Below, piece by piece: positions 11,290-14,930 of a DNA stretch of 64,000 nt; positions within the stretch are counted from its first letter, which is position 1; each line of letters opens with the position of its first letter. Where the stretch lies: the NCBI RefSeq assembly GCF_014218275.1, contig NZ_AP023213.1:1032001-1096000 (forward strand). Direction: 5' to 3'. A program made the position numbers and the translations under genes. The DNA is from Citrifermentans bremense. Its GTDB lineage: Bacteria > Desulfobacterota > Desulfuromonadia > Geobacterales > Geobacteraceae. The notes beneath the pieces were generated by a model. It had not been told where the DNA came from. It ran no database searches and was given only the letters and a program-made list of their open reading frames with translations.

Positions 11290-11306
11290 TTGTATGCTGT
11301 ATACAA
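11290..11306. promoter_or_regulatory. Palindromic operator candidate upstream of the sdh promoter
   Basis: TTGTATGCTGTATACAA is a near-perfect palindrome (seven of eight base pairs about the central T) that ends seven bases before the -35 box of the sdhCAB promoter. The outer TTGTAT/ATACAA halves resemble GntR-family operators. The position just upstream of -35 would suit an activator, or a repressor acting toward tgt. Confidence 0.45.
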
Positions 11307-11313
11307 AAAACAG

Positions 11314-11342
11314 TTGCATTTTGGTATAACGGCATTTAATAT
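11314..11342 (+). promoter_or_regulatory. Sigma-70 promoter for sdhCAB
   Basis: TTGCAT (11314-11319) and TAATAT (11337-11342) are separated by exactly 17 bases. Transcription would start near 11349, giving a leader of about 230 bases that contains the short ORF at 11425. The rest of the 440-base gap between tgt and sdhC (11138-11289) is AT-richer than its surroundings and shows no gene. Confidence 0.65.
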
Positions 11343-11424
11343 GCGCCTCAACCATCCTCCCATTTATAAGATCTATCTCGCATCCGCTTGCAGATAAACC
11401 TCGATTAATAAAGGAGAGATCCAA

Positions 11425-11460
11425 ATGCAGACACTGAGCCCGTGGCGCGGTCCCCCTTAA
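11425..11460 (+). CDS. Short leader ORF ending Arg-Gly-Pro-Pro-stop, upstream of sdhC
   Basis: An 11-codon ORF reading MQTLSPWRGPP then TAA, preceded by AAGGAGAG at 11411-11418 at good spacing from its ATG. It lies inside the predicted sdhCAB leader, 117 bases before the sdhC ATG. The RGPP ending just before a stop resembles known ribosome-arrest motifs of the RAGP/RAPP type. The sequence between it and sdhC can form several stems (GCGG/CCGC at 11468-11478; AGTCC/GGACT at 11480-11507), as expected of a translation-dependent switch. It is too short for statistics; the case rests on ribosome binding site, motif and position. Confidence 0.55.
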   Translation: MQTLSPWRGPP

Positions 11461-11577
11461 CTTCTCAGCGGAAACCGCGAGTCCATCCCAGTAGGGTTCC
11501 CGGGACTTGTAGCCCCTCCGGCGTACGCAAACTACTCAAACCATCGACATCGAAAAAAACGCAAAGGGACAAAAAAC

Positions 11578-12243
11578 ATGCGAATCTTAACTAGCTCTGT
11601 GGGAAGAAAGATCCTGATGTCCATCACGGGTCAGCTCCTGATCATCTTCGTGCTCATCCACCTGATCGGAAACTCCACCATATTCTTCGGACCCAACGGC
11701 ATCAACGCCTATGCAGAACATCTGCACAGCCTGCCGCCCTTGGTCTGGGGCTTCCGCCTCTTCATGCTGGCCGCCATCGCAGTGCACATCTGCTACGGCG
11801 TGATGCTCACCCTGGAAAACAAGGCCGCCAACCCCGGCGCCTATGCCGTGAAAAAGAACCTGAAGAAGAGCTTCGCTTCCGAGAACATGATCTGGACCGG
11901 CCTGCTTCTGGCCTGCTTCATCGTGTACCACCTGATCCAGTTCACCATCAAGGGGACCCCTGACATAGTGATCGGGCTCGATTCCCTCAACCGTCCCGAC
12001 GTCTTCAGGATGGTGGTGACGAGCTTCGGCCACGCGATGATCGCGCTCGTCTACATGGCCGCCATGGTCATGCTGTTCCTCCACCTCTCCCACGGCATCC
12101 CGAGCTTCCTGCAGACCATGGGGTGGAACAACGAGAAGACCATTCCCACGTTCGCTACCGGTGGGAAGGTTATCTCGACCATTCTCATGCTCGCATACAT
12201 CTCGATTCCTGCCGTCATCTTAGCTGGCTTATTGAAACTTTAG
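11578..12243 (+). CDS. sdhC: Succinate dehydrogenase/fumarate reductase cytochrome b subunit
   Basis: A 221-residue five-helix membrane subunit that binds haem b and quinone and anchors the flavoprotein/iron-sulfur dimer. Histidines in the hydrophobic helices (for example in FVLIHLIGNS, AAIAVHICYG, FIVYHLIQF, FLHLSHG) fit the two-haem type B enzymes with a single anchor subunit. It is the first gene of sdhCAB and is followed nine bases later by sdhA. In Geobacter sulfurreducens the homologous complex works both as succinate dehydrogenase and fumarate reductase; the same is inferred here. Confidence 0.94.
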   Translation: MRILTSSVGRKILMSITGQLLIIFVLIHLIGNSTIFFGPNGINAYAEHLHSLPPLVWGFRLFMLAAIAVHICYGVMLTLENKAANPGAYAVKKNLKKSFASENMIWTGLLLACFIVYHLIQFTIKGTPDIVIGLDSLNRPDVFRMVVTSFGHAMIALVYMAAMVMLFLHLSHGIPSFLQTMGWNNEKTIPTFATGGKVISTILMLAYISIPAVILAGLLKL

Positions 12244-12252
12244 GGGGTTCAA

Positions 12253-14930
<2,678 letters not shown>

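Follow-up and report, generated by a model that had tools for sequence, protein, structure and literature searches.

The succinate dehydrogenase operon sdhCAB in the 64 kb stretch of DNA analysed here (the window) is preceded by a very short upstream open reading frame (uORF) ending in Trp-Arg-Gly-Pro-Pro, and this motif recurs, with constant residues and drifting codons, in the sdhC leaders of its relatives. From its sequence, the uORF is best read as a minimal leader of the RxPP (Arg-x-Pro-Pro) arrest type for sdhCAB, a variant of the RxPP arrest peptides. We put at roughly 80% the probability that it is a functional leader peptide that stalls the ribosome at Arg-x-Pro-Pro. Arrest at the WRxPP of the uORF is proposed with high confidence, and a ribosome stalled there is probably one of the factors that determine how much succinate dehydrogenase is made. 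If this is true, a widespread family in which little more than a start codon and WRxPP, with some unconstrained residues between them, is left indicates how small an arrest device can be, raises the question of how arrest is tuned without force reaching the chain, and places a translation-arrest switch on an enzyme that the relatives of Geobacter use in the TCA cycle as well as in fumarate respiration. If the peptide acts in addition as a sensor, it would be, to our knowledge, the first known arrest peptide governing a central respiratory enzyme and one of the RxPP type without a force sensor.

Judged by titles and abstract openings, none of the open-access papers listed in our searches concerns a leader peptide of this type for sdhC, and the combination of 'Geobacter' with 'arrest peptide' retrieved no paper; the main text of a published arrest-peptide survey (PMC12992588) makes no mention of sdhC, Geobacter or succinate. 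As its main text describes, that survey used predicted proteomes. ORFs this small would normally be missing from these, so more of them may exist.

The uORF and the sdhCAB operon

The uORF, MQTLSPWRGPP-stop, lies on the forward strand at 11425-11460, with its ATG at 11425 and its TAA at 11458-11460. Its own Shine-Dalgarno (SD) site, AAAGGAGAGA, occupies 11410-11419 of the same strand, and the GGAG of this site ends 8 nt 5' of the ATG. An 11-codon ORF in the sdhC leader with its own SD site and the ending Trp-Arg-Gly-Pro-Pro-stop had been claimed in a preliminary description of the window, and it is indeed present. The codons for W-R-G-P-P extend over 11443-11457; by analogy with the assignment in PMC12992588, arrest is predicted to occur with the Pro encoded at 11452-11454 in the P site and that encoded at 11455-11457 in the A site.

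The end of the uORF is separated by 117 nt from sdhC, which is on the same strand. By profile match, the genes downstream were assigned as sdhC for the cytochrome b558 subunit of succinate dehydrogenase/fumarate reductase (11578-12243; TIGR02046, E 1.5e-50), sdhA for the flavoprotein subunit (12253-14166; NF005749, 1189 bits) and sdhB for the iron-sulfur subunit (14166-14930; NF005746, E 1.5e-124), all on the forward strand and in the operon order sdhC-sdhA-sdhB, with tgt upstream and divergent. The SD site of sdhC, AAAGGGA, is at 11563-11569.

On the forward strand of the window, the uORF is the sole SD-led mini-ORF with RxPP; the reverse strand contains a single frame with SRPPP, which starts with TTG and is 49 residues long. 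For specificity on a larger scale, the pattern GGAG-ATG-WR[GA]PP was searched in 58 genomes; it needs GGAG, ATG, CGN and G or A at x, so that other uORFs can escape it. Among the 93 matches listed, 38 were assigned to sdhC solely from their position and 55 (48 + 7) were checked for frame, six of the latter being in frame and five of these six being at sdhC (genomes G041, G027, G032, G030 and G025). The sole in-frame match away from sdhC among the matches listed from the 58 genomes is MRHPSRPPAPPRPWRAPP (G017:C1:185761). The window's own genome has three matches to the pattern, in frame only at sdhC.

Conservation of the uORF in sdhC leaders

A first set of leaders was drawn from 58 genomes of relatives, 55 of which have SdhC, giving 30 loci, and from a genome collection giving 79 more. 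An SD-led short ORF with W-R-[G/A]-P-P precedes sdhC at 106 of these 109 loci, among which some species are counted more than once; carriers include Geomonas species, Citrifermentans bremense, Geotalea, Geomesophilobacter, Oryzomonas and Trichlorobacter thiogenes. A class-wide search (SdhC in 255 of 277 genomes) and a phylum-wide search (87 of 394) together added 79 leaders, and from the resulting 188 the removal of four that were too short (L094, L128, L183, L184) and of 17 duplicates left 167 distinct leaders. An SD-led uORF with WRxPP is present in 127 of the 167, or in 126 of 147 when 20 leaders from other classes are set aside. Sorted by motif, the 167 leaders comprise 118 with WR[GA]PP, nine with WRPPP or WRDPP, three with RxPP lacking the Trp and 37 with none of these. 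For the uORF statistics and the codon-change analyses given below, L094 was kept together with the 127 WRxPP leaders, making a set of 128 uORFs.

In 16,700 trials with dinucleotide-shuffled leaders, in which a hit had to lie in an SD-led ORF at the right distance, WR[GA]PP was never obtained, WRxPP with any x was obtained five times and RxPP without the demand for Trp 179 times. A chance ORF is excluded by these shuffles and by the conservation.

Forty of the 167 leaders are without an SD-led WRxPP, and 19 of the 147 class-level leaders are without RxPP as well. Among the 37 leaders lacking an RxPP uORF, 18 come from other classes and the remaining 19 were inspected by eye. Some retain an altered or a disconnected motif: L096 reads WRGPS and L118 CGRAPP; L119, L141 and L179 have WRAPP with no SD-led start; WCGPP is confined to L126, L129 and L136, all of which failed the uORF test; and L127 and L187 have lost WRxPP and keep RRAGP only. 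The uORF frame of L123 (genome G120, family f12) reads MSRRK-TGA-SWRGPP, the TGA being replaced by Ile or Val in its relatives L120 and L121; decay, a sequencing error and read-through are possible readings of it. L150 belongs to a divergent SdhC, L108 to a contig that does not reach the leader, and nothing was seen by eye in L061, L122, L125 and L181. Second copies of sdhC can be without the uORF: this is so for L152 (G198:C57) and for the second copy in genome G033 (L192, G033:C34), the other copy of which (L022) has it. Outside the class, family f48 with 15 leaders includes one with WRGPP (L154), one with RAPP and no Trp before the Arg (L153) and 13 with neither, and the motif occurs in none of five more distant SdhC leaders of the phylum.

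Selection on the encoded peptide

The five motif codons are spelled by 66 different 15-mers in 115 leaders, among which all six Arg codons and, at each Pro, four codons are used, with exchanges between CGN and AGR and with third-position changes. Minimum numbers of changes were counted on a tree that FastTree built from 127 SdhC proteins. The Trp, which has a single codon, underwent no change of codon or residue; the x position underwent 42 codon changes and 11 residue changes; and the first and the second Pro underwent 28 and 41 codon changes, respectively, with no residue change. Arg codons changed at least 34 times against no replacement of the Arg among the retained uORFs. The rows of the tree were picked by motif, so that residue losses show as misses rather than as changes. 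At the flanks, the codon before the motif underwent 46 codon changes and 37 residue changes and the codon after it 78 and 66. Thus, the Arg and Pro codons change without a change of residue whereas the next codon changes its residue, which indicates that selection acts on the peptide. The preliminary description had pointed to constant residues with drifting codons in orthologous leaders as the feature to look for, and this pattern is borne out by the 106 of 109 and 127 of 167 leaders and by the behaviour of the motif codons.

The architecture of the uORF is fixed on one side of the motif and loose on the other. In 125 of the 128 uORFs, the Trp follows the start at a distance of 5-8 codons, and the tail behind the motif ranges from 0 to 36 codons. 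The search being open to any x, this residue is G in 88, A in 31, P in seven and D in two of the 128. The Trp is nearly invariant, leaders L146, L149, L153 and L118 having RxPP without a Trp before the Arg. The frame of the uORF relative to that of sdhC varies (39/41/48). The stop codon directly follows PP in seven of the 128, and in six there is no stop before sdhC. On sequence grounds, then, the conserved unit consists of an SD site and a start codon followed, after a small number of unconstrained residues, by W-R-x-P-P, while the flanking residues, the position of the stop and the reading frame with respect to sdhC are free to drift; the stop, which had been counted as part of the element ('RGPP-stop'), drops out of it.

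Relation to known arrest peptides

The preliminary description had likened the peptide to SecM (RAGP) and to ApdA/ApdP, which comes close to the fitting class, that of the RxPP peptides ApdA, ApdP and CruR. Of its proposal of an arrest-peptide leader for sdhCAB, the conserved RxPP peptide with drifting codons has stood, and the stop codon and the alternative stems have not. The RAPP-like peptides ApdA, ApdP and ApcA have been treated in several studies (PMC7897499; PMC10951233; PMC10987492; PMC12992588). As the main text of PMC12992588 describes, mutagenesis of RxPP found the Arg to be irreplaceable; in the x position Gly does as well as Ala or better, and arrest is at least partly retained with Ser, Asp or Pro; the G, A, P and D found at x in the 128 uORFs fall within this permissive set published for ApdA/ApdP. 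According to the same text, RGPP is the most robust core and RAPP and RGPP depend little on contacts with the tunnel, although a RAPP-like core by itself is insufficient and N-terminal contacts are required. The latter counts against arrest by the sdhC uORFs, the N-terminal part of which is very short. A screen by other authors, cited in the Discussion of PMC10951233, found a minimal RxPP to suffice.

Like ApdA, ApdP and ApcA, the sdhC uORF has an Arg-[Ala/Gly]-Pro-Pro core with the same x residues tolerated, encoded upstream of a gene that it putatively controls. The RxPP arrest peptides described in the cited papers are longer than 100 residues and use their N-terminal part to sense a pulling force or a metal. 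ApdA, ApdP and ApcA have a signal sequence or a transmembrane segment and precede sec/yidC genes, their Arg being at position 120, 131 and 102, respectively (PMC12992588, main text). In contrast, the sdhC uORF has 5-8 codons before the conserved Trp, no localisation signal and a variable tail. RAPP peptides of the Sec/YidC type need, as far as PMC10987492 describes them, an export or membrane signal at the N-terminus together with a spacer of more than 30 residues; neither is found in the 125 of 128 uORFs in which 5-8 codons precede the Trp.

CruR of Bordetella pertussis is a RAPP-type uORF that, like the present one, precedes an operon outside protein export, and its arrest is reported to keep Rho from terminating transcription in a region with more C than G, a proposal made in PMC9426467. 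Unlike the sdhC uORF, which is too short for a sensor domain, CruR belongs to the DUF2946 proteins, uses CXXC to sense copper and has its Arg at position 139; the uORF of the window, with 11 residues and no Cys, contains neither a DUF2946 domain nor a CXXC metal site. SecM shares with it an Arg-containing core before Pro (PMC10951299; PMC12992588, in the parts dealing with this core). The SecM sequence FxxxxWIxxxxGIRAGP, its export signal and its release by force are absent from MQTLSPWRGPP.

TnaC, which depends on a ligand and regulates Rho, and other tiny metabolite-responsive leaders resemble the sdhC uORF in being very short uORFs with a stall inside the tunnel; PMC8429421 and PMC12121999 relate to this group. 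They differ in that their sequences are unrelated and in that the sdhC uORF would stall at RxPP during elongation, not at the stop codon.

In family f12, the frame of the uORF continues to QEERRAGP and thus includes a second motif, a SecM-like RAGP core, in the same uORF. RRAGP is present in L124, L142, L176, L177, L187 and L188 and, by eye, in L127, with RRSGP in L186 and RRVGP, after a TGA, in L126. The f12 nucleotides CAGGAGG persist in leaders without RRAGP, so a role at the RNA level is possible.

How sdhC expression might respond

The spacer between the uORF and the SD site of sdhC (11461-11562, forward strand) is rich in C over G, contains a block conserved at the genus level and is a candidate site of the regulatory output. 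The block, AGCGGAARCCGCGAGUCC...CCUCCGGYGUACGCA, was aligned in 11 close relatives (the window at 11461-11562, L031-L039 and L056). By analogy with what has been reported for CruR, a ribosome stalled on the leader would keep Rho off this C-rich spacer so that the operon stays on. Such antitermination is our first choice for the output, tentatively and at a little under even odds, with translational control second. Among the 95 order-level leaders, C exceeds G in 87 of the spacers, yet it does so in 67 of the stretches of 100 nt before the uORF SD site as well; of the 33 other leaders, only seven have the excess in the spacer; the excess was on these counts rejected as evidence for Rho. In the window, much of the coding stretch of sdhC has likewise more C than G, and this, together with the lack of the excess in 26 of the 33 leaders outside the order-level set, makes the Rho step weak.

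Alternatively, the stall may make the start site of sdhC more or less accessible, or ribosomes may read through the motif, terminate near sdhC and reinitiate there. Such a translational output is conceivable, though less likely than not. It would fit the six of 128 leaders in which the uORF stays open up to sdhC, and the seven of 113 in which the SD site of sdhC pairs with the motif codons at a probability above 0.3. However, the mean probability of this pairing over the 113 leaders is 0.045, masking the footprint of the stalled ribosome shifts the mean accessibility of the SD site from 0.41 to just 0.43, no stem is conserved, and both the distance and the frame from the end of the uORF to sdhC are free. 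The idea that the Pro codons act as an anti-Shine-Dalgarno sequence, suggested by the GTCCC/GGGAC complementarity in the window, was dropped as not general on the same seven of 113 leaders.

What might tune the arrest

A chain of 9-12 residues, as is present when the P-site Pro is encoded by codon 9-12, lies wholly inside the ribosomal tunnel. Such a chain does not emerge from the ribosome and is therefore unlikely to be freed by a pulling force in the way that SecM is. If the arrest is tuned at all, the input would be a ligand bound within the tunnel or at the peptidyl-transferase centre, a translation factor, or the state of the translation machinery; on this geometry, a small molecule or the translation state is a likelier input than a pulling force. 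The Trp may be the tuning residue. It is possible, though short of even odds, that WRxPP is a minimal metabolic nascent-chain sensor: the peptide would arrest at the peptidyl-transferase centre without ever leaving the tunnel, a small molecule linked to respiration or to the TCA cycle would tune this arrest, and across the Geobacter lineage the amount of succinate dehydrogenase/fumarate reductase would be set in this way.

The stall might instead be constitutive and free of any signal, giving a fixed low or a stable output through a block of the uORF's own start site or through protection of the 5' end of the mRNA. The short and nearly fixed distance from the start to the motif, which would put the stalled ribosome near its own start site, speaks for this reading; the deep conservation of one motif is more easily explained by regulation, and we regard constitutive stalling as unlikely. 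Still less probable is a diproline pause that reports the activity of EF-P or the general state of translation and ties sdh to translation capacity with no dedicated ligand. WRPPP and WRDPP, the variants in nine leaders, are strong EF-P-dependent diproline contexts, and a chain too short to sense force is in line with this reading as well. On the other hand, x is G or A in 119 of the 128 uORFs, and arrest at RAPP and RGPP is refractory to EF-P according to PMC12992588.

RNA structure and the upstream block

The preliminary description had further placed several alternative stems between the uORF and sdhC. They find no counterpart in the analysis: the leader folds no better than its shuffled versions (z = 0.57, 141 of 200 shuffles being at least as stable), and none of 30 predicted pairs in the spacer block covaries among the 11 close relatives. 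No terminator-like site is found in the leader, including the interval from the uORF to sdhC, and no Rfam family matches the leader at its gathering score, a single chance-level match (E 4.4) being on the other strand. A riboswitch, an intrinsic terminator and the competing stems of a classical attenuator were rejected on the Rfam, terminator, folding and covariation results. That a conserved RNA or DNA element is under selection with the coding motif as a mere by-product is very improbable: a start-less WCGPP-coding remnant in L129, an SD-less frame in L136 and the prevalence of GGT as the third motif codon (the commonest, in 53 of 115) would agree with it, but the 66 spellings with their third-position changes and CGN/AGR exchange, the retention of the uORF start and SD site, and the lack of an Rfam family at gathering score all stand against it.

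A further conserved block, a putative promoter/operator, precedes the uORF at 11298-11342 of the forward strand and contains TGTATACA (11298-11305). A promoter consensus scan of the leader returned no site. By eye, the block has a -35-like TTGCAT (11314-11319) and, after 17 nt, a -10-like TAATAT (11337-11342); these form a candidate promoter, from which the transcript would be expected to start near 11349. The block, with the consensus ctGTATACA.AAaa..gTTGCA.TTT.tTAtAACG..gTTTA, is unique in the window; 95 of 128 leaders share at least 20 identities with it over 35 positions, and its distance to the start of the uORF is mostly 118-137 nt. With its promoter-like block, TGTATACA is probably also a binding site for a putative transcription regulator.
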